From assembly GCF_026151205.1 (NCBI RefSeq), contig NC_087073.1:17760837-17824836 (forward strand): a DNA stretch of 64,000 nt. The letters are read 5' to 3'. The notes under the pieces were generated by a model. That model was not told the origin of the DNA. It made no database searches and worked only from the letters and a program-made list of their open reading frames with translations. Both the position numbers and the translations under genes were made by a program. This DNA comes from Bolinopsis microptera. Taxonomy: Eukaryota; Ctenophora; Tentaculata; Lobata; Bolinopsidae. Below, piece after piece: positions 18,977 through 50,747 of this stretch. Positions within the stretch are counted from its first letter, which is position 1. Each line of letters opens with the position of its first letter.

Positions 18977-19122
18977 GCTCTGAGAATCAGGGTCAGTAGC
19001 TCAATTGGTAGAGCAAGGCACGCGAAATGTCGAGGTTCTGGGATCATTCCCCAGTTGTCCCTAGTTTTTCAGAATTAATCATCACCTATAGACAGCATGA
19101 GAGTAGGCCCTGCCATCTCGAA
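18977..19122 (+). mobile_element. tRNA-derived SINE-like repeat, copy 1
   Basis: A 146-bp unit. It has a tRNA-like A box (TAGCTCAATTGGTAGAGCA), a T-arm with a perfect CTGGG/CCCAG stem, and an acceptor-like AGGGTCA / TGTCCCT pairing. A 55-bp tail TTTTTCAGAATTAATCATCA... follows. The T-loop (ATCATTC) departs from the TTCGAAT consensus and the anticodon loop lacks U33, so this is not a working tRNA. The same unit recurs 345 bp downstream. Confidence 0.65.
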
Positions 19123-19321: not shown

Positions 19322-19465
19322 GCTCTGAGAATCAGGGTCAGTAGCTCAATTGGTAGAGCAAGGCACGCGAAATGTCGAGGTTCTGGGATCATTCCCCAGT
19401 TGTCCCTAGTTTTTCAGAATTAATCATCACCTTAGACAGCATGAGAGTAGGCCCTGCCATCTCGA
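19322..19465 (+). mobile_element. tRNA-derived SINE-like repeat, copy 2
   Basis: Almost identical to 18977-19122: one base is missing at ACCTTAGACAGC and there is a change at the end. The intervening 200 bp is not repeated, so these are two insertions, or a duplication whose spacer was replaced. Confidence 0.65.
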
Positions 19466-20630: not shown

Positions 20631-22283
20631 ATGTCTGGAATACCAGTTGGCTCAAGAGATTACAATCTGAGATATCGAGGGAATTCTGTTAAATTCCCCA
20701 GTAACGGCTCTCGTCCTACTGATAAATGTTCAAATTGCTTAACTCTATTAAGAGAGAATGATAGTCTTCGTCGGCAAATTTCTATTCTCTATAAACAATT
20801 ATCAGAAAGTGACAGTGCACTCAAAGTTCCCCTCAGCGATGGTTCACTTATCCCTGTGTTGCCCCAGGTACCTGATCACTGTGAAAATTCTATCAATGTT
20901 CCCCTCAGTAATAGCTCATCCTCGCATCTTGTTTCTGAGTTAAACCAAGAGCTATCCAAATTAGCAGAAGACAGTGAACATTCAGCAGAAATTATCAATT
21001 CGGAAAATCCCAAACACTCTGTAAATGGTGTCAATGGTGTGACCAACTCTATCAATCCATACCAAGATTTGAGTCGAGGAGTTTTTCAGTTTGTTGACAC
21101 TGCCAAGTTAGATATAGAAACCCACTATACTCATGAGTTTGAGAATAGGACAGTTGCATATTATGGGGACTTTCCATACGCTTACAATGGAGGCTTTCAT
21201 AACACAAGGCCAGTAGCAGACAATCCCTACCTAAAGTCTATTTTAGAACGCTTAAGCTCACAGTTCCCAAAGTTGAAATTCAATAGTGCTATGATTACCA
21301 AGTATAGAAATGGTCAGCAAGGAATTCCCTTTCACTCGGATGACGAGAGGTCAATTTCACCAGGCTCCATGATCTCCACCATCTCTTTAGGGGCTACTAG
21401 AGTCCTAAGCTTCAGATCCAAACTTAGAGCTCATATTGCTGACCTTACCCTCTCCCATGGTGACATAATGAATATGACCAGACAATCCCAGACCAGCTTT
21501 GAACACAGCCTCATCCAGGACAAGTCTAAAACCATGAGAATAAGCATTACTCTGCGCCTAATTGATGACAGCGCAACCTTATCCACTCTGTCTGATGTTT
21601 CCAGTCAAGTTAAGAACACTGAACCCTCGGCCCCTAAGACTAGATCAATAGAACATTCTGGTAAATCTTTGTGTGTCTACATTAGCTCTAGTATGTTCTC
21701 CAAATTAGAGGGAGAAAAGCTATCGTCCAAACATCATGAGGCACATGTATTCAGCTACCCTGGTGCCACAGCCAATGCAATCAATGAACGGTTTCAATCA
21801 GATGTAAGAAAAGACACTCTTAATACCAATAATGTGAAAAGCATTGTACTTATGTGTGGTACAAATGACGTGGACTCTATCCTGAACAGCCCTCGCAACA
21901 TGAGGACTAAACTTCTGTGCCCTGATAGTTTTTCTGGTGATGCTAGAGCTCTTGACTTTACAAACAATTGTATTGAAAAACTTGTACTTTTCCTTCACAA
22001 GTGGGCACCTGGAGCTGATATTAAAATTGTTAACTTATTACCTTGGGAGAGTTTCTCCAGAAACAAGGTTATAACAGATATCAATGAATGTATATCAAAT
22101 CTGCAAAGAAAATACACCTATGTAAAACTGCTCTCAACCGAGACAAATCGTTTCTTGTTTAGTGATAAGAAAGGCTTTAGAAAATCGTCATTTTTTAGTA
22201 GTTATGGAGAGGATAATGTCCATCTCAATGATTATGGCATAGTTAAATTAGCAAGGCACTTGAAGTATCATGCACACCATTAG
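20631..22283 (+). CDS. LINE ORF1: AlkB-like dioxygenase + SGNH hydrolase
   Basis: A 550-residue protein. Residues 30-62 hold a CxxC and a short amphipathic, possibly coiled-coil stretch, followed by a low-complexity linker. Residues 150-312 match AlkB-type 2-oxoglutarate/Fe(II) dioxygenases: metal ligands H235xD237 (GIPFHSDDE) and H292 (SFEH), the ISLG strand at 251-254, and the oxoglutarate-binding R303xxxxxR309 (RISITLR). Residues 345-545 match SGNH/GDSL hydrolases: block I altered to ISSSM (349-355) but keeping Ser, SYPGAT (G378), CGTND (409-413), and the DxxH pair D528/H531 (DNVHLND). In LINEs an esterase-type ORF1 is established and usually acts as RNA-associated protein. The AlkB part would suggest removal of alkyl or methyl marks from nucleic acid, which is inference. 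Confidence 0.85.
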   Translation: MSGIPVGSRDYNLRYRGNSVKFPSNGSRPTDKCSNCLTLLRENDSLRRQISILYKQLSESDSALKVPLSDGSLIPVLPQVPDHCENSINVPLSNSSSSHLVSELNQELSKLAEDSEHSAEIINSENPKHSVNGVNGVTNSINPYQDLSRGVFQFVDTAKLDIETHYTHEFENRTVAYYGDFPYAYNGGFHNTRPVADNPYLKSILERLSSQFPKLKFNSAMITKYRNGQQGIPFHSDDERSISPGSMISTISLGATRVLSFRSKLRAHIADLTLSHGDIMNMTRQSQTSFEHSLIQDKSKTMRISITLRLIDDSATLSTLSDVSSQVKNTEPSAPKTRSIEHSGKSLCVYISSSMFSKLEGEKLSSKHHEAHVFSYPGATANAINERFQSDVRKDTLNTNNVKSIVLMCGTNDVDSILNSPRNMRTKLLCPDSFSGDARALDFTNNCIEKLVLFLHKWAPGADIKIVNLLPWESFSRNKVITDINECISNLQRKYTYVKLLSTETNRFLFSDKKGFRKSSFFSSYGEDNVHLNDYGIVKLARHLKYHAHH

Positions 22284-22438: not shown

Positions 22439-25432
22439 ATGACAAATTTTAATAATGCAGCTGATAGGTTTCACAACCTCTGCATTGGTCATTGTAACAT
22501 TCAAGGAGGGCTTCTTAATTTAGGTAAAAGTAATGAACTTTCCCAACTTATTAGAGATCATAAATTAGACATACTTTCCCTAAATGAGATGAATCTTAAT
22601 GAAACTATTGACACAGACACCATAAATATTTCTTCCTCCTTCAACCTTATGCGATGCGACAGGCCAAACAGTTCTAGGGGTGGTTGTGGCTTAATGATTT
22701 ATCATTTTTTGTTTATAAACAAAAAACTAGCTTACACAGAATTAATTATGGATAGTAAGCTTGATAACATTGAAGCATTATGGGTGAAGCTTAAGAATAG
22801 CAAGATCAATGTTTGCTGCTTCTATCGCTCTGAAAATTATTGCAGTGTTGATAACTTTATTGAATACATTCATTTTTGCATGAAAAAATTGAATGGGAAA
22901 AAGGTTATCTGGATTGGGGATATAAACATTGACCAGAATAATATCTCATCCACCCAGTACAAAAAATTAGATATGACCTTGAGATGTTACAATCTAGTTC
23001 AAACCATCCAAGGGATAACTAGAGTTGCTAAACGTGGAGACAATTTTACCCAGACTACTATTGATGTAATATTCACTAACTGTTATGCAGATTTTGTTCA
23101 ATCTTCTGTTCTTGATGAACGTATTGGGGATCATCAAGCTATTATGTGTGAGATAGATTGTAAAGTACCTATAGCTCCTAAATTTGAAAAGGTTGAAATT
23201 AGAAATCATTGTAAACGTAATGTTAAACAATTCTTAGACTATCTAGATACCTGTTCTGATTACAGTCCACTATTGGAAAGTACAGATGTTGAAGCTATCA
23301 CTGCTGGCCTTTGTCATCATATTGAACAGGCATATGCAACCTTCTTCCCTTGCAAGACCATAGAAAGGCATGAAAAGTTCATACATAAACCTTCTACTGA
23401 ACTTTTAAATGCCATTAATCATACACATTTTCTTCTAAAGAAATTCCGTAAAAAGAAGGATAAGAGAGACAATGGAAATTGCAATAAATGTGGTACATGT
23501 AGCAAATGTATAAAGTGTAATGAGGCCTGGGATTGCTACAAGATTCAGAGAAATATTAGAAATAAATTAGCTAAAACCTGCAAAAAGGCTAATGTAATCG
23601 ATGATCTACAAGTTAAAAGTGCCAAGAATGATCTTAAAGGGATATGGAAAACTATCAAACTGGCATCAAATATGACCCCTGGTACAACTAATTGTCAAAC
23701 CATCAATGAGAATGATCCTGAGCTATTTAACTTTCATTTTGCAAATGTTGGATCAAGATTACAAAATCAGGCCCCCAATATTGAAAGAGTTAGTTTTACT
23801 GATTTTTTACCTCCTAGAACTTCTAACATCTCATTTGATAGATTCCAAGAAATAAATGAAACTGATATCCTAATGTATGTCGAAACGCTCAAGAATGACA
23901 AGGCCTCATATGACGATGTGCCTCTATTTTTACTTAAGCAAGCTGTACCACACATAGTTGAGCCACTGACCCATATTGTCAATTTGAGCCTTAATACAGG
24001 TGTTGTACCAACCCTTTGTAAAAAAGCTAGAGTAACTCCCATCCATAAGGCAGGAATGAAAGATGATCCTAATAATTACAGGCCAATATCCATCCTTCCA
24101 CTTGTAGGAAAACTTATAGAAAACTTTGTCGGCAAGCAACTCACTGATTTCATGGAAGAGAACAAACTTTTCATCCGGCATCAATATGGCTTTCGGAAAA
24201 ATCACTCCACAACTTATTTGATGTACGATCTGATGGACGAAATATATATGAGTAAATCTAAGTCTTATAAACCAGGAATCATCTTTCTTGATCTTAAGAA
24301 GGCCTTTGACACAGTGAATCATGAAATATTGCTTCAAAAATTGGCATATTATGGAATTGGTGGCATTGCTTTAACCTGGTTTAAGAACTTCTTATCTTGT
24401 AGATATCAATGCACAAGGATTAATGGCAAACTAAGCTCATTTTTAGAAGTTCTGAGTGGTGTACCACAAGGAAGCATCATTGGGCCTATATTATTTAGTA
24501 TCTTCATAAATGACATCATTTATGCCTGTAACCTATCTAAGCCCTTTCTATTTGCAGATGATGGTGCACTATTCTTTGATCAAACCTGCAGAAGCACATT
24601 TATAAACATGAAAATAGAACTTATGACAATCTTTAAATGGCTCAGTGTTAATAAGTTATCACTCAATGAAAAGAAGACTGAATTCCTATTATTTGATTCT
24701 GTTGATAAACATGATGAATTAACCATTGAATGTGATGAGGTAACTTTCACAATCAAGGAGTGCAAAGAGACAAAATATCTTGGCCTCATTCTAGATAGTA
24801 AATTAAACTTCAAAAGCCATGTAGATTATATTATTAGGAAGGTCATGAAGAGAATTGGTGCCATGTATAGAAGTAAAGCACTGCTACCCATTAAATATAG
24901 GAAAATGTTTGCCAATGCACTCATGTTGCCACAATTCGATTATTTAGACACGATCTATTGTAGAGCTGGCAAGACAAAACTTGCTGAACTTGACACTCTG
25001 TACAAAAAGGTAGCCAAAATAGCTCTCAACGTTCCACAAACAGAGAGCAGCCTTAATGTTTATAGAGACATGAAATGGTTACCACTCCATCTTAGACGAC
25101 AACTCCATCTGTCAAATTATACGTTTAGAATCATCCATGACAATTGTCCTACAAACTTTATGAACAAATTTAGTTACATATCAGGAGGTAGTAGGAGCGG
25201 CGAAAGCTGCAACCTATATGTTAATAGATCAACATCACATAAAAACTTTCAATACTTGGGGGCAAAATGTTGGAATAATGTTCCAACAGATCTACGAAAT
25301 CTGCCCGATGTTAAAAGCTTTAGTGATTCGTATAAGAAACAGCTACTCTCATCTATAACAACAGACCCTTATTATACCGTCGACAATTCATATGACAAAT
25401 TTTACACTGCAATCATAGTCGACGATAACTAA
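22439..25432 (+). CDS. LINE ORF2: endonuclease-reverse transcriptase
   Basis: A 997-residue protein. Residues 14-240 are an APE-like (EEP) endonuclease: GHCNIQGG (14-24 region), catalytic E50 (SLNE), GDIN with D161, and the final DH at 231-232 (IGDHQAI). The linker carries a cysteine cluster C348-C351-C354-C357-C360-C366 (CNKCGTCSKCIKC). Residues about 525-790 are the reverse transcriptase: TPIHKAG, NYRPIS (546-551), QYGFRKNHST, FLDLKKAFD with D618, SGVPQGS (673-679) and FADD (705-708). The C-terminal part has the usual post-RT LPIKYRKMFANAL segment and no RNase H. All catalytic residues are present and no stop interrupts it. It nicks target DNA and primes reverse transcription there. Confidence 0.92.
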   Translation: MTNFNNAADRFHNLCIGHCNIQGGLLNLGKSNELSQLIRDHKLDILSLNEMNLNETIDTDTINISSSFNLMRCDRPNSSRGGCGLMIYHFLFINKKLAYTELIMDSKLDNIEALWVKLKNSKINVCCFYRSENYCSVDNFIEYIHFCMKKLNGKKVIWIGDINIDQNNISSTQYKKLDMTLRCYNLVQTIQGITRVAKRGDNFTQTTIDVIFTNCYADFVQSSVLDERIGDHQAIMCEIDCKVPIAPKFEKVEIRNHCKRNVKQFLDYLDTCSDYSPLLESTDVEAITAGLCHHIEQAYATFFPCKTIERHEKFIHKPSTELLNAINHTHFLLKKFRKKKDKRDNGNCNKCGTCSKCIKCNEAWDCYKIQRNIRNKLAKTCKKANVIDDLQVKSAKNDLKGIWKTIKLASNMTPGTTNCQTINENDPELFNFHFANVGSRLQNQAPNIERVSFTDFLPPRTSNISFDRFQEINETDILMYVETLKNDKASYDDVPLFLLKQAVPHIVEPLTHIVNLSLNTGVVPTLCKKARVTPIHKAGMKDDPNNYRPISILPLVGKLIENFVGKQLTDFMEENKLFIRHQYGFRKNHSTTYLMYDLMDEIYMSKSKSYKPGIIFLDLKKAFDTVNHEILLQKLAYYGIGGIALTWFKNFLSCRYQCTRINGKLSSFLEVLSGVPQGSIIGPILFSIFINDIIYACNLSKPFLFADDGALFFDQTCRSTFINMKIELMTIFKWLSVNKLSLNEKKTEFLLFDSVDKHDELTIECDEVTFTIKECKETKYLGLILDSKLNFKSHVDYIIRKVMKRIGAMYRSKALLPIKYRKMFANALMLPQFDYLDTIYCRAGKTKLAELDTLYKKVAKIALNVPQTESSLNVYRDMKWLPLHLRRQLHLSNYTFRIIHDNCPTNFMNKFSYISGGSRSGESCNLYVNRSTSHKNFQYLGAKCWNNVPTDLRNLPDVKSFSDSYKKQLLSSITTDPYYTVDNSYDKFYTAIIVDDN

Positions 25433-26900: not shown

Positions 26901-28809
26901 AAAATATAGGTTAAGGGCTTTTCAGATGATTTGGCTCCTCAACAGATACCGACGTACATAACGGTCAATATGTAGTTTAGGTTTACCTGGCCCGTAGGTT
27001 ACGAATGTGCCCGAGGAAGGAAAAAAAGCAAACTTAAGAAAAAAGACAATTTTTTTGAGAAAAGACAATTTTATTATTTATCACCAATTCAATACATAAT
27101 CAATAAATATATATCCGAATAAATTTGATTTAAAATTAAATGATACAAGTATGCTAGCAGCTAGCGCGCTTGTATTTGATAAATATTCACGCTGTTAAAA
27201 TGGGTTTTACCACACCGCCACTCGCATTATGACATTAGCACAGTTGGTGAACGGAACCAGGCGCTGTTAAGCTTTTATGAGCCCTGGTTGACTGCTGAGA
27301 GTGGCGACGGGTCTGACATTAATTTTTTCTTAGTTTAACCTATATTCCAATAAAATTTTAGTTTTGAGTTATAATTATATGATTTTTATGCGATATTTAA
27401 GTTACAGATGCTCGCAATACATTATTGCTTAAAAATTGTTAAATATGCTCACTATATGCTTAATTTTAGATACCGTATGTATATATACATATCAGCTCAT
27501 AATACCAAATAACAATAATAAATAAATTAAAAGCATGAAGAGGTCCAAAACCAATTCAAGCATGAGACCAGGTTGAATACATTGTCGATCATCGGAAGCT
27601 GCAAGCTTATTAACGTTTGATTCCACGTTGATCCGTTATTATGCAGTCACCTTCAGGCGGTGTCGACGGATCATGCGAAAAGGGTTTTTGACAGGCTGTG
27701 CCCTTACCATAATTAAACTGAACCATTGCATGATACGATGTAAACATGAGTGTTGGATAGGTGAGCCGCGCAAGCGCTCGCGCGCGCGCATTTGTGTCGC
27801 TCTGACGTGTGATGTGTTGTCTTTCTCCTTTCTGTGTCCCTGTCGTTTTGTTTTGTGAATATTTTGTTTTAAAAAAAAACATGTAGTAGTGTTTTAAGCA
27901 AATATTTCAATTGAACGTAACTTAATAGTTAACAATAAAAAACACAAATACTATTTTAAATAATTAATTAATATCGATTACTAAACATTAATTATTCTCT
28001 AACGACTAACTTATATGTGTTAAACGATCCATGGCCTATCTAAAATTCGATAATGAACTTCATATTATTAGTGCTGCGTGCTGATAAATATTCTGGGAAT
28101 CAATCCACCCAATCGTGGCGATAACATCTTTGTGCTCGGCCGGTTTTAGGTTTGAGTTTGTGCTCCAAAAGTGGTAAATCGGGTGCTAGTAAAGCTCTTA
28201 CAGGCAACTGGCTCCTTTTGCCAACTGCTTTTGGTTTAAGCGCTGACTCACATTTGGAACTGGCACGGGTATAATTGTAATATCCTACAAAGTCAGCATG
28301 CTAAATTATCTCGCAAAGTTGTTTATCTTAATAATATTTAGAGTTTATGGTTTAGGCGCGGCGCAACGCTCACAGCTTTTTTATTTTCGGCGCTGTGTTG
28401 CTACAGGCTGTATAGCATGTGGGTCAAGCGCTGTGCCGTGCCTAAGCAGCAAAAGAGTTATAAATAAATTCTTTTAACACACTTTGTTCTGCCAATCAGT
28501 TCTGACTGTTGATATTCTTTAAATTTGATAAAATTTATTTTTGTATCTCAAAAATGATGTAAAGTTTTTAATATGACGTAGAATTAAAGCTATTTCCGTA
28601 CAGCCTAAGTATGCTCGTTTGAGAAACTAAGAACATGCTAGCTTTCTTTATTTTGTTAGTTGGCCGACATCTTGGGTTGTACTGGAACTAACAAGTTTAT
28701 TATCAGATGTCTACTTATATTTATTATGATATCATTATTCATTGTAATGGCAATAAAATTTAAATTTTGTTTTACTTATATTTTAATAAAACAAATATTT
28801 TAATAAAAC
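26900..28809. other. No gene seen between the two LINEs
   Basis: About 1.9 kb of AT-rich sequence with two short frames (27610-27882 and its complement) that show no domain and sit on a CGCGCG-rich patch. No repeat boundaries could be fixed. Confidence 0.5.
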
Positions 28810-29180
28810 AAATATTTATTTTTACGGCACAATCAAACAATATCAATAATAAATAAATCAGGGGAGGTTTGAAGAGGTTTCAAGTGCCGAAGGCCACTGC
28901 TTATCTTTAGGATTTGAGAGTGACCTGTGCTTGAAACCCCCTCAACCATCCACTACGTCAATATAATACTTATTATACAAATATAGAAAAATATAATTAT
29001 CTAAGCTAAAATTGCTTATTGGTCTAGTTTGGTGACATGATAGGAGAGCCCAGTTGAGTTTTAGTTTAGGTTTATGTTTTAAATCATAGTTTGAAAGGTT
29101 AGCCATGTTTCATGGCAGAGAGAGATATCATGTGTGCAGAGCCGTACCAGATGTAGAATTTGAGATATAATATAGATTAG

Positions 29181-32100
29181 TTACCATATATTAGGGTCAC
29201 CTCGATTTTGGAGGGATAGCAAGTGCTTTTTAAGGTTAGATTTAATAATACCTGACGAGGCTGATAAGTCTGAATTTTTGGAAGAACCCGGGATTATTAT
29301 CCCATCTACATTAGCATCACATATTTCGAATACATAGGGGATGAGATCATTCCATATTTTCGTAGAGGTGTACAAAAAGTTCTGTTGGGAGATATCTAAC
29401 CTCAGTAATGGGACAATAAGACGAAGTTTTTCATTTCTAGGACAGAACTTGAAAAGATCTTTAATCGACTGGGGGACATCAAATTTAAGAATTTTAAATA
29501 GCTCCATAAATGTATGGTACATGTGCAGATTCTCCAGGTTCATAATTTTCTGCTCAGTGAATAGTGGTTTAGTGTGTTCAAGACAGTAGTTCTTTTTAGC
29601 CATATGTTCGTTATAAGTTCTTGAACGTGCACAGGTTAAGTAGTATTCTTTATGATCAAAATTGGGAATGTTACCAAATAGCAGTCGTATACATCGTTTT
29701 TGAATAGCAAAGATTTTATTCAGCTTATGTTTAGGGATCCCACCCCAGCAACTTATACAATAGCTAAGATGTGACATAAATAGAGCATTGTATAGTTTCA
29801 AATATTCAGATTTGGGAATGAATTTGCAAATTCTCTTAATCGATACAATACTGGAGTTCAGCTTTAAAGATAAATGATTAAGATGTGGTTCCCAACATAG
29901 CTGTTCGTCTATTATCACCCCAAGAAATTTTGTACATTGAACTTTTTCTAGCTTTTTGCCATCTATTGAAATCGTTAGATTCCTGTTAAAGGGCCGTGTT
30001 CTAGCACAGGTCTGTGTTGCTCTTGACAAACCTGGCTGAAAATGCATAAAACAACTTTTCCCTGCATTTATATGTAACTTGTTAGACTCCATATAGTTAC
30101 TGACCTGTTTCATTACATGATTAGCTTTTTCAAAAGCTTCCTGTGCTGAACGACCTATCACAAAAATATTTGTATCATCAGCAAACAGGACGAATTCAGC
30201 CAAACTTGAGGAGCTCACAATATCATTTATATAAATCAGAAATAGTAGAGGTCCTAACACTGACCCCTGGGGTACACCATACTCAACTGAACACTTGTTC
30301 GATTTTTCAGTTTGAAAAGAAGTTACTTGGCTACGGTTTGTTAGATAGCTAGCAAGAGTTTTTAGTGCAATACCTCTTACTCCATAGTGTTCAAGTTTAT
30401 GCAGGAGTTTATCGTGCTCAATTGTGTCAAATGCTTTACTTAGATCAATAAATATTCCAATTACATGATTTTTCTGTTCAATCTCATTAAGTATTTTATT
30501 AACAGAATAGTTTACGGCATGAGATGTTGAGTGTTGTTTTCTAAAACCAAATTGTCGATCATAAATCACGTTCATAGCACTGAGGTAATTATATAACCTA
30601 TTATAAATTATTTTTTCAAGTATTTTGCCAAATATCGGTAATGTAGAAACAGGTCGATAGTTATCAAGGCATCGTGAGTCTCCTTTTTTATAAATTGGTG
30701 TAATAGAGCCCGTTTTAAGCTTGTTTGGAAAGACCCCATTGTCCAAGAACCAATTAAAGAATCTAGAGATATGACCAGACAGATAATTTACACTCTTTTT
30801 CAAGACTTTAACAGAGATATCACTTGCCTTCCCATTTTCAAGGCTACCAATAATTTTACTTATCTCTTCCTCGTCACAGGGGCTGAGAAAAAAAGAGTTC
30901 ACTATTCTTTCTCTGCCCTTGAGGTATTGTTTAAACTTCGTTTTATTGAAATTGCCATCAGTTACCGTACGAGATGGTACAGAAGATTGAACTTTTGAAT
31001 TAAGATTACGAGCAATAGACGAGAAGTAGATGTTAAATCCGTTGGCAATCTCACGGCGTTCAGTTACAATTCTACCATCAATTAAGAATGATGCTTTTAT
31101 ATCTTTTTTAGATTTACCCCTGAGTTCGTTGATCAATTCCCAGGTTTTTTTAATATTTCCTTTAGCAAGTTCAAATTTTTTCCCATAGTGGGCTTTTTTC
31201 GCAGATTTTATAGCTTTGTTTAAGATAGAACGATACTCCTTATACTTAAGATATAAAGTTTCCTCACCTAATGGGTTGATTTTGGTACACGAAGCCTTCC
31301 ATCGCTTGTAGTGAAAGCCTTTAGTAAACACAGATTTAATTAACGCAGAAGTGATCCATGGATTCATCAATCTATTGCGTTTTGATTGACAACCAGCAGT
31401 ACAGTCCACTTTGAAATTCAGTTCGATTTTTTCGTGGACAGTTTCGACAAATTTTTCAAAACCTTCCTCATCATACGAAAAGTTCGATTGGTAGATATCC
31501 TTTCCAATATCATTAAGGAAACTTTCTATATTAGACTCACAGTAATCATACTTAGGTTTAAGTTTGGCAGTATTTGAACTCTCTTTAATATTACACGATA
31601 TGAAACAGAAGATTGGGTTATGATGGGAAATCTTGGATTCAAGAATTCCAGATCCTAACACACGCTCAGTAGAGTTCACTAAGATATTATCAATTAAGCT
31701 TTCATTGCAACCCGGCTTGGCATGGGTGGCAATCGATATCAAAGGGATTAAATTGTTACTGTAGATAGTTTGTTCAAATTCAGCTATGTTTCGTCCCTGG
31801 GCCAAAAGATCAACATTGAAGTCACCTGTCAAGGCTACATTATTAGACGGTAGAAATTTCATCAACACATCAAGCTCAGCAAGTGCATCTTGAATATCAC
31901 CACTAGGGGGCCTGTAAACAACACCAGCAATCTGTGGAACCTCTGTGTTAGTGATCTCAACGAAAAGTGTTTCAAGATTGTCAGAGCATTTACATAACTT
32001 TTCGATTCGGCTGTATTGGTACTGATTGTCAATATATATACCAAGGCCACTACCTTTCTTTTTCCCATCAGTTTTAGAGTTGTACTCACTGCTGTAACCA

Positions 32101-32612
32101 TCAATTTTGTATAGATCTTTATTTTCCTCATTAATGTTTGTTTCAGCTAGCGCAATAACTGCAAATTTCTCATCATATTGACTCATATCAGTAATAAAGC
32201 TGTCAAAGTTAGATGCGTTCCCATCAATGTTGTTAAACACAATAGATATAAACGGCTTGTTATGGTTAAGTATGTTTTTTGACAGCCGGTTGAAATTTGT
32301 CATGTTATAATACCTACAGTCTTTTAGAATGTTTGAAATAGTCTCCATATCCTCGTCTCTTTCTACAGTGTTGGGATCATATTTGTCATAAATAATTGAG
32401 TTAAAAGGATTGTACCTTTGGGATTTGAAGGCGTAACACTGACTGCAGTGCCACATTTGTTTAACATGATCAAATTTAAAACTCTGTTCAGAACATTTGG
32501 CATGATATATTGTATCGCAACTCTCACATATTATGATTTTATGATGGCTTAGTACATTGCTATCACAACCTGGACATCTCTCTCTTGTAATATTGAAGTT
32601 TATTGAGGTCAT
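29181..32612 (-). CDS. LINE ORF2: PHD finger + endonuclease + reverse transcriptase
   Basis: An 1143-residue protein. Residues 13-59 form a PHD-type Cys4-His-Cys3 finger (C13, C16, C29, C32, H37, C40, C56, C59). Residues 120-340 are an EEP endonuclease: FNNIDG, catalytic E157 (LAETNI), YRPPSGD, and GDFN with D264. Its last block reads ISHHNPI, so the Asp of the common SDH motif is His. Residues about 630-880 are the RT: TPIYKKGD, NYRPVS, FGFRKQHSTSHA, FIDLSKAFD with D723, YGVPQGS (778-784) and FADD (810-813). The C-terminal domain has SHLSYCISCWGG and ends ...LQNRGDPNIW. No RNase H. Its ATG overlaps the ORF1 stop. Confidence 0.92.
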   Translation of the reverse strand: MTSINFNITRERCPGCDSNVLSHHKIIICESCDTIYHAKCSEQSFKFDHVKQMWHCSQCYAFKSQRYNPFNSIIYDKYDPNTVERDEDMETISNILKDCRYYNMTNFNRLSKNILNHNKPFISIVFNNIDGNASNFDSFITDMSQYDEKFAVIALAETNINEENKDLYKIDGYSSEYNSKTDGKKKGSGLGIYIDNQYQYSRIEKLCKCSDNLETLFVEITNTEVPQIAGVVYRPPSGDIQDALAELDVLMKFLPSNNVALTGDFNVDLLAQGRNIAEFEQTIYSNNLIPLISIATHAKPGCNESLIDNILVNSTERVLGSGILESKISHHNPIFCFISCNIKESSNTAKLKPKYDYCESNIESFLNDIGKDIYQSNFSYDEEGFEKFVETVHEKIELNFKVDCTAGCQSKRNRLMNPWITSALIKSVFTKGFHYKRWKASCTKINPLGEETLYLKYKEYRSILNKAIKSAKKAHYGKKFELAKGNIKKTWELINELRGKSKKDIKASFLIDGRIVTERREIANGFNIYFSSIARNLNSKVQSSVPSRTVTDGNFNKTKFKQYLKGRERIVNSFFLSPCDEEEISKIIGSLENGKASDISVKVLKKSVNYLSGHISRFFNWFLDNGVFPNKLKTGSITPIYKKGDSRCLDNYRPVSTLPIFGKILEKIIYNRLYNYLSAMNVIYDRQFGFRKQHSTSHAVNYSVNKILNEIEQKNHVIGIFIDLSKAFDTIEHDKLLHKLEHYGVRGIALKTLASYLTNRSQVTSFQTEKSNKCSVEYGVPQGSVLGPLLFLIYINDIVSSSSLAEFVLFADDTNIFVIGRSAQEAFEKANHVMKQVSNYMESNKLHINAGKSCFMHFQPGLSRATQTCARTRPFNRNLTISIDGKKLEKVQCTKFLGVIIDEQLCWEPHLNHLSLKLNSSIVSIKRICKFIPKSEYLKLYNALFMSHLSYCISCWGGIPKHKLNKIFAIQKRCIRLLFGNIPNFDHKEYYLTCARSRTYNEHMAKKNYCLEHTKPLFTEQKIMNLENLHMYHTFMELFKILKFDVPQSIKDLFKFCPRNEKLRLIVPLLRLDISQQNFLYTSTKIWNDLIPYVFEICDANVDGIIIPGSSKNSDLSASSGIIKSNLKKHLLSLQNRGDPNIW

Positions 32613-34774
32613 ATCGGTAAGATATCACCCCTACTACCCCTACTTAGGGCACTCCTATAGTCACCATTTCCACCTTTAAATCTTTCCGTGGACTGACTTC
32701 CACCACGTTGTACAATACACCGTTTTATGTTCATACAGAATATTTTCAGGCCTTCTCTCCCGAGATGAACAACATCATTGACCAATGGTGTGCCATCACG
32801 TGAGAATCTACCATACTTAGAGGGCATACATCCGTTAACAGAACCTAGTACAGAGTTATCTATAATAAACATGTTTTTCCTATTATAAACCATGTCGACA
32901 ATTAAACTGTTTAACTCCCCTATACGTGAGTTAACAAACTGTGATTTGGTGGGCAAGAGTAAACTAATATGAACTTTACTATTAGGATAAAATTGCTGAA
33001 TTTCACAACATTTCTTCTTAAGCTTAGCAATAAGTGTTCTAGTGGATGGTCTGTTGGAATCATCTCGAATATCATTGATTCCCGTATGTATAACAATGTT
33101 CCGAAAGGGGCCTATGTCTTTGGGAGCAGGAATATCGTCGATTTTAGCAGCCCACATTCGCTTACCGGGAACCCATTTTCCTAGAGTTCCAACATCTTTA
33201 CCAAATTTAATGTACTTAGTGTTTGAGTCTCCAATTAACACTGTGCTATTTTTGTAGAAAGGCGCAATATGCCTAAAGGTAAAGCTGTACCTCACAGAAG
33301 TTTTCTCTTCAGATTCCTCGCCATCTTCTTCATTAGCGAGGGGTTCAATACCATGATTCCAGATTTCCTGGGACATTCTGGACATCACGTATACACTTCC
33401 ATCTTTGAGCTTTAAGGACTTTTCAGTCGACTTATGTGTGAACTTTATTGTGCGTTCTTCACCAAGGGACACAGTGACTATTATCGATTCTGGGTCAATA
33501 AGAACCTCATTGTCGCAGTGTTGGGGGATATGGCTACTATTGCCTGTATATCTTGTAACAAGGCAAGAGTTCAGCCAGCTCTTCCTATTGGGGAGAGAGG
33601 GACGCACACAGTCCAAAAGATCTTGTATCTCCGGTGGAGTTTCCTTTGCCTGATGATAGGCTCCTGTGTACCAGTATCCATGTTCACCAAAGTAGACAAC
33701 ATCCCTGCTGCCACCAACCGAAGAAAAATCCGCACTATTGTCCTCCAGCAGCTTTATAAGTTTGCTGTGAAGCTCAACAGGCACTATATCTTCCTGATAA
33801 GTTAGATAAGGGTCACATGCAGGGCCTTCAGGAATTTGAGATGCAGCTAAGTGAGGAGAAGTAGTGTTAGGGGTCATAAGGATAGATTCATTGTGAGGTA
33901 GTTCACCTTCATCAAAGTTCTGTGTGGACGTTGAGGGACATACATGATCATTGATCTTTTCCAATTGCACTTTGATCTGGGTCATCAGGTTGTCAACATG
34001 ATCGAAAGTACTGCTGTTAGTCGGAGGTTGCTCTGTCATAGGTATATTTTTGAGAGAGTCCTTCAGGCCATCAATCTCCTGTTTGAGAGAGTTGCTGGTT
34101 GTCTCAAGAGCTGAGCCACTCTCCTTTACTTTCGTAAGTACACCCTTGATAGAAGCTATGTCTTCAGTGATATCTTCAATTCCAGTCACTAATCGTTCTG
34201 TTCTTTTGGAGTGTTCTTTGAAACTGTCCTCCTTGAGTATGAGGTGTTTGATATGCTCGTTAAAGAACTCTATGGTTGTTGTGCTTTCTTTGAGTTCCTC
34301 GTTACACTTTGATATCTTAGAAATATTGCTAAAGAATTCTGTTAACGCTTTGGATTTTTCCTCCTCCTTCAATCTTCTTGTGTAAGGAAAGATAAAGCAG
34401 TCCGGGCACTTCCAGGAAGTGCTGAGCTTCTTTAGAGAAGTTGCTGTGAGGCCAGCAAGGTTAACACAGTTAGAATGGAAGGTCTGCTTACAAGTAACAC
34501 ATAAGATTGCAGGGTTCTTTGACTCTACAAAGCAGGGACACTTAGAGAGTAGCGTGCCTGGGATCGATGCTGGTTCGTTGCTCTCTACATCTACAAAGTC
34601 TCCATCAGATGTTAGATCTGCATCTGGCTCTGTGTTCCTATTATGTATTCTGCTAGTGACTTTTCGGCTTAAAACAGGGCTTGCAATAGGGGTGGATCCA
34701 GCTGACTTGCACCCTCGAGACATGGAATTAAAGAGGTCCGATCTCCTGTCGAGTTTCTTGTCGGTCTTTTTCAT
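32609..34774 (-). CDS. LINE ORF1: PHD finger + coiled coil + AlkB-like + SGNH
   Basis: A 721-residue protein. Residues 79-126 form a PHD finger (C79, C81, C92, C95, H100, C103, C123, C126). Residues about 135-275 are rich in Glu/Lys/Leu heptads and are probably coiled coil. Residues 328-503 are AlkB-like: YFGEHGYWYTG, metal ligands H419xD421 (IPQHCDNE) and H474 (WNHG), TVSLG, and R495xxxxxR501 (RYSFTFR). Residues 510-690 are an SGNH hydrolase: canonical block I GDS (515-517), HTGIND (563-568), and DxxH at D667/H670 (NDVVHLG). The N-terminal finger may read histone tails and steer integration, and the AlkB part may act on RNA or cDNA. Both functions are inference. All catalytic residues are in place. 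Confidence 0.87.
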   Translation of the reverse strand: MKKTDKKLDRRSDLFNSMSRGCKSAGSTPIASPVLSRKVTSRIHNRNTEPDADLTSDGDFVDVESNEPASIPGTLLSKCPCFVESKNPAILCVTCKQTFHSNCVNLAGLTATSLKKLSTSWKCPDCFIFPYTRRLKEEEKSKALTEFFSNISKISKCNEELKESTTTIEFFNEHIKHLILKEDSFKEHSKRTERLVTGIEDITEDIASIKGVLTKVKESGSALETTSNSLKQEIDGLKDSLKNIPMTEQPPTNSSTFDHVDNLMTQIKVQLEKINDHVCPSTSTQNFDEGELPHNESILMTPNTTSPHLAASQIPEGPACDPYLTYQEDIVPVELHSKLIKLLEDNSADFSSVGGSRDVVYFGEHGYWYTGAYHQAKETPPEIQDLLDCVRPSLPNRKSWLNSCLVTRYTGNSSHIPQHCDNEVLIDPESIIVTVSLGEERTIKFTHKSTEKSLKLKDGSVYVMSRMSQEIWNHGIEPLANEEDGEESEEKTSVRYSFTFRHIAPFYKNSTVLIGDSNTKYIKFGKDVGTLGKWVPGKRMWAAKIDDIPAPKDIGPFRNIVIHTGINDIRDDSNRPSTRTLIAKLKKKCCEIQQFYPNSKVHISLLLPTKSQFVNSRIGELNSLIVDMVYNRKNMFIIDNSVLGSVNGCMPSKYGRFSRDGTPLVNDVVHLGREGLKIFCMNIKRCIVQRGGSQSTERFKGGNGDYRSALSRGSRGDILPI

Positions 34775-39217: not shown

Positions 39218-39699
39218 CTATATGTATAATATAATGAGAAGTTCAGTAATATTCGTTAATTTCATATTATATATTTCTAATTTCTATACCGTGCACCTTT
39301 CGTTTCCCCCGATTGGCCCGGTATATACTGTACTTATAAAGTTCTAAAATTCTCGAACGAACCTATAGCTATCGTTCTAGAACGTTTTATTGGTGACCAA
39401 AAAACCAAGAAATCACATTTCTTAATAAGTTCCAGAATAAACCTGTTGTTCTAGAACTAATTTCTGCGGCACTACTCTGGACAGTTAATCTAATAATACT
39501 CCGGTCTCCCACGAAATACCCGGTTTTTGTTTGTACCGCGACCGATAGATCTCTGACGGGAATGAGGTTTAGGATTAGATTTCTAATGAGATTGGAGGAC
39601 TACACCGTGGTCGTCAGACAACCGAAATAATAATAAAAAACAGCGGTTAATATTCCAGAAACGTAGCTGTGTTCCCCACTTCTAGATCAAGGTAGCATG

Positions 39700-39759
39700 G
39701 TAGATACAGGTTAGCGGGCGTTTTGTATTTATACAAAACGCCCGCTGACCTTTATCTAC
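39700..39759. other. Long perfect hairpin
   Basis: AGCGGGCGTTTTGTAT and ATACAAAACGCCCGCT flank a 2-base loop, and outer GTAGATA / TATCTAC pairs extend the stem. The same hairpin lies at about 63109-63168 in the right arm. It borders the 34-bp tandem array. Confidence 0.8.
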
Positions 39760-40167
39760 ATGTTAGCATATAACTACAAACTATAACTACAACTTGTTAG
39801 CATATAACTACAAACTATAACTACAACTTGTTAGCATATAACTACAAACTATAACTACAACTTGTTAGCATATAACTACAAACTATAACTACAACTTGTT
39901 AGCATATAACTACAAACTATACCTACAACATGTTAGCATATAACTACAAACTATAACTACAACTTGTTAGCATATAACTACAAACTATAACTACAACTTG
40001 TTAGCATATAACTACAAACTATAACTACAACTTGTTAGCATATAACTACAAACTATAACTACAACTTGTTAGCATATAACTACAAACTATACCTACAACA
40101 TGTTAGCATATAACTACAAACTATAACTACAACTTGTTAGCATATAACTACAAACTATAACTACAAC
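39760..40167. repeat. 34-bp tandem array, 12 copies
   Basis: The unit starts TTGTTAGCATATAACTACAA and ends ACTATAACTACAAC. Copies 5 and 10 share a variant (ACCTACAACATG), which reveals a five-unit higher-order repeat. The right arm has only seven units (62871-63108). No spacers vary, so this is not a CRISPR. Confidence 0.9.
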
Positions 40168-40559
40168 GGGGGGGAGCCAAGTGGATATTTGTAGATATTT
40201 GGATAATGTCATCCACTTTTTTCGTGAATTATCCATTACAATAATCTACAAATATCTACATTTATCTACAAAAAATGTATATCTCAAATATGTGCCCAGA
40301 AATTCTACTGAATTTTTGGAGATAAATGTATAAATTTGTAGAATTTGTAGAATTTTCGTGAATTATCCATTGACAATAATCTACAAATATCTACATTTAT
40401 CTACAAAAAATGTAATCTCAAATATGTGCCCAGAAATTCTACTGAATTTTTGGAGATAAATGTATAAATTTGTAGAATGTCATCCACTTTGTTCGTGGAT
40501 TATCCATTCTACATTAATCTACAAATGTCTACAAATATCCACTTGCCCCCCCCCCCCCC
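40168..40559. mobile_element. Foldback bounded by G7 and C14 runs
   Basis: Starts with seven G then AGCCAAGTGGATATTTGTAG, and ends CTACAAATATCCACTTG then fourteen C. The interior repeats ATCTACAAATATCTACATTT and AGAAATTCTACTGAATTTTT motifs in two sub-blocks. It has been inserted into the 34-bp array, whose sequence resumes after 40563. The same element sits at 62479-62870 in the right arm, so it pre-dates the duplication. Confidence 0.75.
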
Positions 40560-43500
40560 TACCACTTGTTAGCATATAACTACACAAACTATTCTGATTA
40601 TATCTTATGAACTATGCATGCGGTACATTTACAGAGAAAGTGTGATGTTCAATGTACATAGTGCATATCTTGGTACATCACACTTTGCAATATTGCGAGG
40701 GTATTTAGGGAAAGTCAAGGTGGTGTTCCACTGAAAGGTGTTGATATAGGTACCACTATTAGGTGACACATTAGACCTTTTGTTGATAAACAATTTAACC
40801 TCAATTGTGTGTATAAATCATCTCTAGTGTAACTAAACACGTTCTGGACAACTAGTGGGCTGTGTACTGCAGTGTACAGTGTGCACAACCTTTCATGTGG
40901 GCGCGGAGGATTGCTTGATCAACATTTGTTAAAGCTTTGTTCCTGTTTAAAGGTTGTGTGCACTGTACACAGCCCGGTCTGTTCCTGTGTAAAGCTTATT
41001 GTTCTACGTAACATCCAATAAATAATATTACTAAATAATAAATAAATAAATAAAACAAAGGTTATCATTAGGCGCTTTAATTAAGGTTCGTCAGAATACG
41101 GTGAGCGCTGTGCAATTACACAGTGCATAGAAATTGATATTGTGTGGGGTTGACAGATATGTTTAAAATCGTTCACTTTCAGAGTCAGAGTAAGTATTAG
41201 CAGGGTTCATGTTGGTCATTAGGGTTACAAGGAATAAAAGCCCATTGAAATTATTACTATCGGCACACCGATTAGATACTTTATATGTTTTTCTAACGAA
41301 TGAACGTTATATTTCCACCCGCTTAACTTGTTCTAATAAGTGTGAAAGCCATGATACCACTCTTATACTTTAACAAGTTGGGACGTATTTGAAGGAGATA
41401 TGAATTGAACAAAAATTCAGAGTATATCAGGGGCCATCTTAAGTTGATTACTAAATAAATCACTGATGATTATATTTTCGTCTCATTTTCATGCGTAACC
41501 GGCAACTTAAATCTTACCACTATCTGCTGTTTCAGCGGACCATCTTTAAATTCTGTATTAAATTATTAACAGTCACACTGATATTCGACAGAATTAGGTT
41601 ATAAACGGCTAGACCAGTTCCTTCTAGAACGATCGTGAAGACTCTCTCCTCTTCCAAAATGAGTATGTAAGGGGTTCTATGAGGGTTCATCGTGTGACCA
41701 TGGGGTGACATCTTTCCGCGGTGAATAATTATGTCTCCATTCTTGGGAATATGTATGTGATTTTAGATGTTGGAGATTTGTAAGAAGTTACAGTGCCACT
41801 TACTACAAACATAAACTTCTTAAGTTAATCATAATATTACATTTCAAGATTCTAGAAGTTTATATCATAATATAATAGTTTATGTTATTATAGCATCCTT
41901 TACTAAATGTAATATTCATCTTACTTGTTACAGTATGAAAGGTTCTTAACTCAAGGCTGACCATGCTGAGAAATAACTTAAAATAAGGAAGCTTTCACCT
42001 ATAGTTTCGTGGATGATCTTGAGATCAAGCCTATTATTTATAGAAATGTGGTAAACTGTATTGGATGGAATCTAAAGATCGGTTTAACAATGTTTATCAA
42101 TTTCATATTTACGATCAGGGTTACAGTCTGGATAAAAACGATGATTAATATTCCGGTAATTTCTAAGAGTGGACGCTGCATTTCTACTGTTTTGTGTTGG
42201 AAGAAAAATTGGCCAAGGAATAAGAACTCTAGGCCCTAAAAATATAAAGGATTATTCTGGTAGTTACATTCCAAGCCATTAGGTTATGACCCTCGTCCCT
42301 CATAGTTGATAGTCAATATCTATTGTGTGAAGATTCAAAAAGATTCGAGAACTTTCTGTGGATTACTGTGAAAGCCAGCGCTAAGAACGTTTATTTAACC
42401 ATTCATTTTATATGGAAGGTTCTCTTTTATTAGTATACGTATTACATCAAACAACCTTATTTATGTCAGATCCCTGGCCCTTATCTTTATTTATAATTTA
42501 TCTTATTTGTATCTTTATCGGCTGAGTTATAAGCCAAAAATTTTGAGGATGAGAAGTTGCAGTGCCACTTACTATAAGTATTAACTTACTAACTTTCAGT
42601 GGATTACTGAGAAAGCCAGCGCTATGAAAATATATTTTTATCATTCATTTCTTGGAAAGCCCTCAAATAATACCTAATACCTGAAAAAAGTTATTTTTGT
42701 CAGATGCCTGGCTCTTATCTTTATTTATAATTTATCTTATTTTAATCTTTATCGGCTGAGTTATAAGCCAAAAATTTTGAGTTACAGTGCCACTTATTAA
42801 TTTAATCATCATATTAAATTTCAAGATTCTAGAAGTTTATATTATATGTTATACAGTATAATTATAGCATCCTTTACAAAATATAATATCCATTTTACTT
42901 GCTACTTTATGAAAGGTTCTTTACTTGAAGCTGACCGCGCATAGAAATAACTTAAAATAACCAAGCATTCGCCTATTATTTCGTGGAAGAAGCTATGACA
43001 TTAAAATATTCTAGACCGGACCATCTTTTTATGGAAGCTTCTCGAATATTAACTTATTATTTTCGGATCCCTAGTATCTTTATTGGCTGAGTTATGAGTC
43101 GAAAACCATACGGCCATATTTGGTAATAGATAAATTTGAAACTAAGCATTCACCTACTATTTCATGCATGGTCTTGAGATCAAGCTAGCATGTACGTGAT
43201 TCTGTGCGGCTGGTTAGTGGCTGTGTATTTGTAATGATGCGGTCTGTACAATAAGTACAGTGTACAGTTTGTACTCTCCTCTGTGTGGAGACAGTGTAAT
43301 CATACTTGGTATGAAGCTTATAAATAGTAATGTGGTAAGCTCTGTGCTCGTTCACTGTTAAACAATAACAAAGCAGATCACATGTGATGCTGGATGGAAT
43401 CTAAAGATCAGTTCAACAATTTATACAGTCCATTTCTTATCTAGGATCAGGGTTAGAGTCTACAGAAGGGCTAATAAAAATCAAGATTATTATTCGGGTA

Positions 43501-44533
43501 ATTAAATACAGGGGAATATTCCTGGATGAATATGTCCCACATGTCTAAAGAATGTTCCATATTATTACTCATTAGGTTATTGTGTAGCACGATTTATAGA
43601 ACAATCGAAAATGTTCTAGAAGCTTCCTCGGGTCTGAGTGGCTGGCAGAGATAATACGTTCTAGTAGACACGCTTGTGGGACACTCTCAATGACTGCCTG
43701 GGGTATATAATAAATACAGGGCTATCACAACATGACTTATTAGTATTACTATGTGACCAGTTTGTTTTTATCTTTAGATCTGTAAGTGTTAAATAACTTA
43801 TTTGTATTTATAATATATCTTAGTATCTTATCTTTATTAATTTATTTATGATGTGACGGTGTCATGTTATAATCCCTATAGTTACAAATTTAATGGTATT
43901 TGATGATAAGTGGGGTACATACTACACACAGCCATTTAGAGGGGTCCCCCTCCCCCATTAGAGTATATCTGGCGCTAAATTTCAATGCAAAGCTTCTTAT
44001 CGAGCAGTGATATTCAAATTGTATTCACTGGGTTATAGCACAGAATTAATTAAAGATTTAGAGAAAACATTTGAAAAATTTTAAAAAAGTTTGAAATAAA
44101 AAATGAAAGATAAAAAACCAAGCCATACTTGGGAGTGTGGATATAGGTTCATCAACTTCCATCAATCGTATGTTAGATAGGCAGTTTTCTTTTTACTGGG
44201 TTTACTGGATAGAAAACCGGCCTCTACTATATATATATAGAAGAGTAGAATCAGTGATTTTCTGTTTGAACTTGTACAATATAGCTAAGAAGCAATAGTT
44301 ATGTAAGCTTTGTGTTTGTGCGAGTTTATTGATTTAGTGCCAATATTATTTGTCCACATTCCTGTTTTATTCTCATTTATATTTTCCACAATATGAGAGA
44401 AATTGAATTATCACGTTTGACCGTCTCGTATGACGTATCCCGGTAAGGCAAGTTTATTTTGTCAGAAATATTAAATCTGCCATAAAACCAACCTTCTCCA
44501 CGGTTGCCGCTGTTAACGGGACTAATGATAAAC

Positions 44534-47075: not shown

Positions 47076-47576
47076 TTAGTCCAAGAGTAGCTCGGCTGGA
47101 TAACTCCAGGGGAAACTGTCTGGAAAATCCTCCGTATCTCCAGATGCTTCAGGGTTCAGGACCTTGAAATCTGGGCTTATCATCGTCAAAGCAGGAATAT
47201 AATTTCTCTCTGTCAATTTGTACATTTTAGCTCCAATGGTATCAATCTGATCCCATGGTAGTCGTATCCAGGGCATCTCCTTGAAGTACTTGTCAGCATC
47301 AGGCTCGTTGTGATCATGCGTCACCCAGATTACCTCCCAGTTCTTGTCCTCGTAAAGTCTGTTGTACAGCTTAACTAGCTTGGGAGTGTACTCTTGACAT
47401 CCTCCACACCAGGAAGCAGAGAAGTATAGTCCGATGTATTTACCGGACAAATCAGCAAGGGTCACGTTCTTTCCAGCTCCATCAGTGTAGGTTGTATCCA
47501 GTAGATCTTTGATACTGGCCCCTCTTCGGGCCACTGCAACGCATAGAAGAGCAAGGAAGGTTAAAGTCTTCATCAT
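47076..47576 (-). CDS. Secreted thioredoxin-fold protein 1 (tryparedoxin/nucleoredoxin type)
   Basis: A 166-residue single-exon protein. MMKTLTFLALLCVAVARRGA at the start is a signal peptide, so it should enter the secretory pathway. The mature part has a thioredoxin-like fold of the nucleoredoxin/tryparedoxin group: ADLSGKYIGLYFSASWCGGC with active-site C57 and C60, then EYTPKLVKLYNRL, NWEVIWVTHDHNE, YFKEMPWIRLPW and YIPALTMISPDFKVLN. It has one NVT glycosylation sequon at N37. The WCGGC pair should allow thiol-disulfide exchange, but the substrate is unknown. It is the most divergent member of the five-gene tandem set, with its own signal peptide and a longer C-terminus (SYPAELLLD). Either of the first two Met codons could start it. 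Confidence 0.88.
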   Translation of the reverse strand: MMKTLTFLALLCVAVARRGASIKDLLDTTYTDGAGKNVTLADLSGKYIGLYFSASWCGGCQEYTPKLVKLYNRLYEDKNWEVIWVTHDHNEPDADKYFKEMPWIRLPWDQIDTIGAKMYKLTERNYIPALTMISPDFKVLNPEASGDTEDFPDSFPWSYPAELLLD

Positions 47577-47612
47577 TGTAAGAGATTATGAAACGAGATA
47601 GTAGGTAAGATA

Positions 47613-47618
47613 TTTATA
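47613..47618 (-). promoter_or_regulatory. TATA-like box of thioredoxin-fold gene 1
   Basis: Minus-strand GATATAAATATC, with TATAAA 37-42 bp before the first ATG, implying a very short 5' UTR. Confidence 0.5.
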
Positions 47619-48246
47619 TCAACATATGAATCGTAATTAAGTTCGCATTAAGAATTAGCGGACGCTTTGTAAGATCTCGTTAAGGCCGGCTCATCAAATT
47701 AACACTTTAATGTTGTCGACCGGGTTGACAAACTTATTTTTATCATTTTCGTGTTAATACGATCAAAATAATTCACAAGGTTAATTTTTAACACTTAAGG
47801 TTCACTTGTAATTCTGATTAGGACAGAGAAGTGCTAAACTACCCGCTTAATTAACGCATCTGTTGTGAGCTGACATTTCAGAAATACATAAACTTAATGT
47901 GACCGAGAGATTATACTAATTATGGAGTGGTTGAAGAATGAAGTGCTCACCCCAATGTCAAAAAGTTCGAGGCCAGGATCGATTCAGTTTGAAGATTTTA
48001 TTAGTTTGATCCCATGTTTTTATAGACAGGGATAGAGTGCATAACGGACAAACTTAAAATCTTGAATGGTTTTGCTTGAATTTAGGTAACTGATAAATTC
48101 CATAAATTATGCGAATCGTGGTATAAATTTCAAAAATCTCGATCTGAAGAAGAAAACAATTTCGTTAATAAGTATTGACTGATTCCATTATTAGTAACAT
48201 TCATTGAGATAAAACATACTTGGTTTCAATGGAAAGTAATAAAAGA

Positions 48247-48717: not shown

Positions 48718-48766
48718 CTTCAGTAATCAGCACTAAGCAAGTAGGAACCAGCCGGTTTTTTCTCCT

Positions 48767-48772
48767 TTTATA
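48767..48772 (-). promoter_or_regulatory. TATA-like box of thioredoxin-fold gene 2
   Basis: Minus-strand CTGATATAAAAGGAG about 50-55 bp before the ATG. The surrounding promoter is similar to that of gene 3, including an upstream TTTAGATCTTAGGTTTC stretch (plus-strand wording). Confidence 0.6.
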
Positions 48773-49199
48773 TCAGACTTTTTGCCACTTTAGATCTTAG
48801 GTTTCAAAAATTTCTTTGTTATGCTCTAAAAGCCGCTCTCTAAATTAATTTATCATGCAATTAGTAAGTTGTGATTGTCAATCTGTCTTTGTGGTTTGAT
48901 AAGCAAGTTGGCTTTAAGACCACATGTTTGAAAAAAGAGTTACTAGATTATCCTACAATGATCCTTTACTAACGTGTACATCATTCAGTGACGGCTGGTT
49001 GTTTAGTCAAGCATGTACTTTAATAAGATCATTATTATTTTTGAAAGCGTATTTGATCAACATTCGTCCATTATAATCATCCAACCCAAAACAATAAATA
49101 TGCGTTGTGTATCAATAATGATAATGTAAGTTAAAACAGTGAATATTTTTCATTAATTTCAAAACAATCTTTTAAGTCAGCATTTTTCGGAGACTAAAA

Positions 49200-49670: not shown

Positions 49671-49720
49671 CTTCAGTAGTCAGCTCTCAACAGGTAGAAA
49701 TCAGCTGGTTTTCTACCCTC

Positions 49721-50700: not shown

Positions 50701-50747
50701 CTTCTGGAATTAGTAGTTAGCTGTTAAGAACGTGATTATTTTCTACA

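Follow-up and report, generated by a model that had tools for sequence, protein, structure and literature searches.

AlkB-type dioxygenase and SGNH hydrolase domains paired in the first open reading frame of LINEs from the ctenophore Bolinopsis microptera

Little is understood about the proteins encoded by the first open reading frame (ORF1) of long interspersed nuclear elements (LINEs), and ORF1s of the enzymatic kind are rarer still. The closest described relatives of the element reported here are the type IV (esterase) ORF1s of the CR1/L2 group, in which a coiled coil, sometimes with a zinc finger or leucine zipper, precedes an SGNH hydrolase. Such ORF1s have no known RNA-binding fold, and the SGNH domain of one of them, zebrafish ZfL2-1, is active and binds phospholipids (PMC3905857). 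A 2014 survey of CR1, L2 and Jockey ORF1s lists PHD, coiled coil, RRM, CCHC and esterase domains and confines esterase ORF1s to two exclusively vertebrate groups (PMC4120745); cnidarian and sponge element esterases have also been named (PMC3905857), and CR1/L2 elements are known that have a PHD finger either within ORF1 or where ORF2 begins (PMC4120745, PMC3905857). We analysed a stretch of 64,000 nucleotides of the ctenophore Bolinopsis microptera (NC_087073.1, positions 17,760,837 to 17,824,836; hereafter the window), which carries an intact non-LTR (long terminal repeat) retrotransposon, LINE B, on its minus strand and a second LINE, LINE A, on its plus strand. LINE B shares the coiled coil, the SGNH domain and PHD-like fingers with these elements, and differs from type IV ORF1s in an added AlkB-type Fe(II)/2-oxoglutarate (2OG) dioxygenase domain, which lies between the coiled coil and the esterase in the position of the linker. 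LINE B probably belongs to the CR1/L2 group.

AlkB domains are carried by other parasites with RNA templates, among them the Flexiviridae, which are plant RNA viruses that replicate without reverse transcription. Their AlkB likewise lies inside a replication protein (PMC544882, PMC11784248). An orchid Ty3/Gypsy element also encodes an AlkB (paALKBH5-like), which is active and binds RNA; unlike the LINE domain, it belongs to a plant LTR element, occupies a separate ORF, is ALKBH5-like and was titled a recent acquisition (PMC9289625), whereas the LINE AlkBs are fused to SGNH, resemble ALKBH2/3 by sequence and occur in several diverged families. Rotifer LTR and Penelope-like elements share the SGNH hydrolase with LINE B (as GDSL/SGNH ORFs), and the text on their ORFs contains no occurrence of 'alkb' (PMC5408684); the same holds for the LINE ORF1 survey (PMC4120745). 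Among the best-ranked papers of the open-access literature, in several listings the best 8-20 of up to 470, we found no report of an AlkB in a LINE (Repbase was outside this search), and passages of genome papers name host ALKBH2/ALKB2 and nothing on AlkB in elements. With the elements described here, LINEs join plant viruses and one orchid LTR lineage among the RNA-templated parasites that carry AlkB.

LINE B consists of ORF1 followed by ORF2, both open, and has the layout of an APE-type non-LTR element, with endonuclease and reverse transcriptase (RT) in ORF2. Its features are as follows.

32609..34774, minus strand: LINE B ORF1, ATG at 34774 and stop at 32609, 721 codons encoding a PHD-like finger, a coiled coil, AlkB and SGNH
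34397..34540, minus strand: PHD-like C4HC3 finger of ORF1, by pattern; Pfam PHD 22.4 bits, cut-off 24
33950..34366, minus strand: predicted coiled-coil helices of ORF1 (137-275 in the AlphaFold2 model), with weak matches to coiled-coil families
33254..33826, minus strand: AlkB-type Fe(II)/2OG dioxygenase domain of ORF1, Pfam 2OG-FeII_Oxy_2
32699..33262, minus strand: SGNH hydrolase domain of ORF1, with GDS, PG, GIND and DVVH; Pfam alone weak, E 0.29
29181..32612, minus strand: LINE B ORF2, open frame of 1143 codons; RVT_1 3.9e-39
32436..32576, minus strand: second PHD-like finger, at the N-terminus of ORF2, by C4HC3 pattern; Pfam PHD 19.5 bits, cut-off 24
31638..32198, minus strand: endonuclease domain of ORF2, Pfam Exo_endo_phos 2.3e-4, 21.4 bits, below the cut-off of 24.5
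29910..30689, minus strand: reverse transcriptase domain of ORF2, Pfam RVT_1 3.9e-39

The ATG of ORF2 overlaps the stop of ORF1 (ATGA at 32612-32609), and the probability of such open frames from base composition is about 1e-20 for ORF1 and 1e-38 for ORF2. The zinc ligands are complete in both fingers, each of which scores below the Pfam cut-off. An earlier note, made from the letters of the window, had placed a PHD finger and a coiled coil ahead of the enzymatic domains of ORF1; this is borne out by the C4HC3 pattern, with a Pfam score just short of the threshold, and by helices that are predicted with low confidence (predicted local distance difference test, pLDDT, mostly 42-58). Convincing target-site duplications were found for neither LINE A nor LINE B, the best shared word being 12 bases. 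The 17-bp repeat at 28778-28817 is a candidate for the 3' tail.

By sequence, an AlkB-type dioxygenase can be firmly identified in LINE B ORF1. The domain scores 68.8 bits with Pfam 2OG-FeII_Oxy_2 against a gathering score of 31.2 (E 9.4e-19), and the iron ligands HxD...H and the two 2OG/active-site arginines stand in order. Every ORF1 residue that the earlier note had named was found (H419, D421, H474, R495, R501, GDS 515-517, GIND 565-568 and DVVH 667-670); the P0003 numbers used for residues below are higher by 28. The pattern of these AlkB residues, which was composed after the sequences had been seen, occurred in 2 of 200,000 shuffles of B and 1 of 200,000 of A, and a six-frame scan detected it within the window only in the ORF1s of A and B. 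The LINE B domain also has the AlkB fold: in a search with the AlkB part only, complexes of ALKBH2 and ALKBH3 with DNA led the best 50 rows. Sequence-profile matches up to E 10 included ALKBH2/3/8 and lacked ALKBH5.

The SGNH domain of LINE B ORF1 is identified by motif and by profile. The blocks with Ser, Gly and Asn, and the last block with His and the triad Asp, follow in order (GDS, PG, GIND, DVVH), and 200,000 shuffles gave no such pattern for B (strict) or for A (relaxed), both patterns having been composed after the sequences were seen. Pfam GDSL gives 12.1 bits for B (E 0.29) and 21.5 for A, against a cut-off of 32.9, and no solved structure matched the SGNH sequence of either at E 10. 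Across one copy each of B and the three related genomic families C, D and E (described below), GDSNT, PG, GxN and DxxHL are invariant, with GINS in family C where B has GIND. The profile of these four matches the SGNH part of a lone genomic ORF, F (hhalign E 1.6e-7, probability 93.9), which itself passes Pfam GDSL at 47.7 bits. Because the genome copies share the blocks and their profile matches F, the SGNH assignment for LINE B is upheld.

We further compared LINE B with LINE A, in which the earlier note had seen the same AlkB and SGNH pair in the same order.

20631..22283, plus strand: LINE A ORF1, carrying AlkB and an SGNH domain whose block I is altered; the PHD pattern is absent from the N-terminus
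22439..25432, plus strand: LINE A ORF2, endonuclease and reverse transcriptase

The motifs are indeed present in both ORF1s, and SGNH block I reads IGDSN in B versus ISSSM in A, as had been noted, so that the block is changed in A with the serine in place. The further statement that the two proteins share little outside these motifs applies to the N-terminal parts, which have no detectable similarity (657 of 2000 shuffles as good), and fails for AlkB (32% identity over 124 aa, E 5e-17, z 30, 0 of 2000 shuffles as good); SGNH is weak to intermediate (z 3.7, 12 of 2000). Identity between the two ORF2 proteins is 28% across an alignment of 939 positions. Upstream of LINE A lie two tRNA-Ser(CGA) genes, at 18989-19063 and 19334-19408, about 270 bp apart.

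A search of the host assembly (264,652,675 bases in 232 contigs) with LINE B ORF1 at E 1e-3 or better gave at least 66 matches; these come in pieces, with some copies matched twice or more, so the figure is no copy number, and it is a lower bound because, of the 1079 candidates from the first look, only 60 received a score. The 35 loci examined (L026-L060) fall into the following groups, together with one decayed, deleted B copy (L060, read by eye).

L026-L045: family B, 85-100% identity to LINE B ORF1
L046-L052: family C, 40-45% identity to LINE B ORF1
L053-L055: family D, 30% identity to LINE B ORF1
L056-L059: family E, 34% identity to LINE B ORF1
L053 837-2276, minus strand: F, a lone AlkB and SGNH ORF of 480 aa near a family-D LINE, with HxDxE, H and RxxxxxR kept

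The pair is therefore common to five LINE families (A, B, C, D and E) and one lone ORF. The HxDxE/H/RxxxxxR pattern is present in all six; A, C, D and E also exceed the gathering score of 2OG-FeII_Oxy_2, and F stays below the AlkB cut-offs of Pfam, with PF03171 alone at 17.7 against 23. F is possibly a sixth AlkB and SGNH lineage and, with its ORF2 outside the locus, a putative LINE. The endonuclease, below threshold in B, scores above it in C (30.9), D (29.3 against 24.5) and E (33.3 against 27.4). ORF2 of family C (L048, 2107-5565, minus strand) also opens with its own PHD-like finger, so that in families B and C each of the two proteins has one. Family D has the PHD pattern and family E a similar Cys/His cluster to which the pattern is blind (read by eye), and Pfam PHD gave no match in D or E at E 0.1. 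The flank of L060 (3-2237, minus strand) resembles by eye LDL-receptor repeats and then a membrane receptor, as would fit an animal.

From two diverged families with the same catalytic residues, the earlier note had concluded either that the activity is selected for or that the families share an ancient ORF1. We examined selection in family B using the 12 of 20 fetched loci with an open frame, the others (L032, L038 and L040-L045) being interrupted or shortened. Nonsynonymous to synonymous polymorphism (pN/pS), from uncorrected Nei-Gojobori counts pooled over 66 pairs, was 0.30 overall, 0.60 at residues 29-165 (the N-terminus with the PHD-like finger), 0.35 in the coiled-coil region, 0.17 in AlkB and 0.09 in SGNH. 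Purifying selection in family B is thus strongest on AlkB and SGNH. Neutral change after insertion would push the ratios towards 1, so the low values indicate that the source copies were under purifying selection on both enzyme domains, and picking open copies removes only those that bear stops or are shortened. All 12 are identical at H447, D449, E451, H502, R523, R529 and N430 of AlkB and at S545, G565, G593, N595, D695 and H698 of SGNH, 13 catalytic or cofactor residues altogether. Among the eight excluded copies, the NSCLVTRY-HxDxE stretch was readable in eight, the second His stretch in six and the double-Arg stretch in seven. These results favour selection for the activity, and we saw no relaxation at the metal ligands in families B to E.

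The second option, common ancestry of ORF1, was addressed with trees. The AlkB tree comprised 14 LINE-type rows (A 1, B 2, C 3, D 3, E 4, F 1) and 11 AlkBs of cellular, phage or viral origin; it left out the host's own ALKBH genes, the Rhizobium row L008 and the viral loci L022 and L023 (both with stops in the frame used), L012, L015, L024 and L025. The 14 LINE-type AlkBs form one side of a branch against the other 11 (support 97/98; 98% of 200 bootstrap trees), with D and E as sisters (99/99) and B to F separated from A (82/95). In the RT tree rooted on three LINEs of other sources (L001-L003), B, C, D and E stand together (100/100) and D and E are again sisters (82/99). Since the two trees agree, the AlkB-bearing ORF1 and the RT are concordant in B to E as far as they are resolved, and no recent recombination of ORF1 was seen among these families. 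An earlier AlkB tree had placed A and B with the fast-evolving L008 (89/92); with L008 dropped, A and B joined at 97/95.

An ancient shared ORF1 is thus supported for B to E and is not settled for A, and one origin for all LINE AlkBs is likewise supported by these sequences but not settled. Several observations weigh against a single origin. By identity, A (35%) and B (30%) are closest to human ALKBH2 and F (26%) to ALKBH3, not to each other, and A is slightly nearer to human ALKBH2 (35%) than to B (32%). Trees joining A with ALKBH2 (approximately unbiased test, p-AU 0.093) or B with ALKBH2 (0.089) were not rejected. The long branches of A and F limit the trees, the placement of F being unsure (branch length 6.93), and with such branches a separate capture of AlkB by LINE A is possible. 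The RT of A groups with L001-L003 when rooted on human L1, itself a very long branch (85/95; a tree joining A with B was not rejected either, p-AU 0.27), and with B to E when rooted on L001-L003 (83/81).

L001, L002 and L003 are LINE ORF2 fragments with absent or cut ORF1s in contigs filed as bacterial metagenome-assembled genomes (Aureispira, Dojkabacteria), and likely represent eukaryotic contamination of public bacterial genomes. In a viral contig collection, the AlkB-only query gave 15 loci, all of them AlkB matches on viral contigs, and the other queries gave none; tblastn in phages and plasmids returned bacterial or phage AlkBs and bacterial RTs, with no LINE among the matches listed.

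We propose, with confidence about evenly divided, that the AlkB domain of the ORF1 protein demethylates the element's RNA template, or the RNA/cDNA, and so clears marks that block the RT. The protein would multimerise through its coiled coil and coat the element RNA, from which AlkB would oxidatively strip RT-stopping base methylations of the 1-methyladenosine (m1A) and 3-methylcytidine (m3C) type; alternatively, it would act on RNA/cDNA during target-primed reverse transcription. The ribonucleoprotein (RNP) would in either case bring its own template-repair enzyme. The SGNH domain most probably retains the function at lipids or membranes that has been proposed for esterases of other LINEs; the PHD-like fingers could recognise chromatin at the target. 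ALKBH2/3 and Escherichia coli AlkB, the class that the LINE AlkBs resemble, remove m1A and m3C, and the R2 RT of ordered two-template relay (OTTR) is a LINE RT. AlkB acts on RNA, m1A impedes the R2 RT used in OTTR, and after AlkB treatment most 3' tRNA halves are captured more often and intact tRNA changes modestly (PMC12140624). Because a LINE copies one long RNA into one cDNA, a demethylase carried in the RNP would be a plausible gain. A wider and more doubtful extension is that an old LINE lineage has a self-repairing RNP whose AlkB clears host-placed or damage-derived methylations; template methylation would then be a real barrier, possibly a host defence.

Several points weigh against template demethylation. 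The substrate class is suggested by family resemblance at about 25% identity; in the tree, the LINE AlkBs stand apart from ALKBH2/3 and are not nested with them, and FTO, an N6-methyladenosine (m6A) enzyme, comes just 2-3 Z units below in the LINE B fold search. The structure model of SGNH is poor (mean pLDDT 41.9), the pN/pS ratios are uncorrected, pooled over related pairs and drawn from copies picked for an open frame, and the LINE ORF1 types in the published survey are without AlkB (PMC4120745).

Action on DNA, whether on freshly made cDNA, at the target site or on copies of the element (3mC, 1mA or 6mA), would protect insertion or counter silencing, and appears unlikely. It draws on the lead of the ALKBH2 and ALKBH3 DNA complexes in the fold search, on the chromatin contact suggested by the PHD-like fingers and on mouse Alkbh1, whose loss raises 6mA on young L1s along with silencing marks (PMC4982230), but ORF1 proteins are, as textbooks have it, mainly RNA-binding. 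Rather unlikely, too, is an m6A eraser by which the element RNA would evade m6A-reader decay or silencing: the profile reaches ALKBH2/3/8 and, up to E 10, misses ALKBH5, and over-expressed ALKBH5 cuts human L1 retrotransposition about 4-fold while FTO has no effect (PMC7873242), so that m6A erasure need not help a LINE. An AlkB fold that merely binds nucleic acid and packages RNA seems improbable. Esterase-type ORF1s are without known RNA-binding domains (PMC3905857) and AlkB sits in their linker position, and the H448A mutant of the orchid AlkB retains RNA binding (PMC9289625), but the metal and 2OG ligands are identical in all 12 open B copies and the HxDxE/H/RxxxxxR pattern recurs from A to F. 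That AlkB is a functionless passenger from a captured host gene, possibly captured repeatedly, is very improbable: retroelements do capture ORFs (PMC5408684) and the trees do not reject an independent capture by A (p-AU 0.09), but lack of function is contradicted for B by pN/pS ratios that are the lowest of the ORF in AlkB and SGNH, and five LINE families as well as one lone ORF have retained the pair.

Template demethylation could be tried directly in LINE B, which offers a ready system for comparing active with dead enzyme and full-length with 5'-truncated insertions. The union of a demethylase-like domain and an esterase in ORF1, in several diverged families and under selection in B, suggests that LINE replication is affected by chemical modification of its RNA template or cDNA.

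Elsewhere in the window, 119-4072 holds a tandem repeat with a 21-bp unit and about 188 copies, and GC content is 54.5% in the first 4 kb versus 34-42% across the rest. A large imperfect palindrome has its arms at 39519-44235 and 57383-63349, with inverted arms of up to 1159 nt at 99% complementarity; tandem arrays of 34-bp and 134-bp units lie at each outer end. Its spacer holds five tandem short ORFs (47076-52269, minus strand) with a WCxxC-type motif that varies among copies, whose products resemble secreted proteins of the thioredoxin/nucleoredoxin fold.

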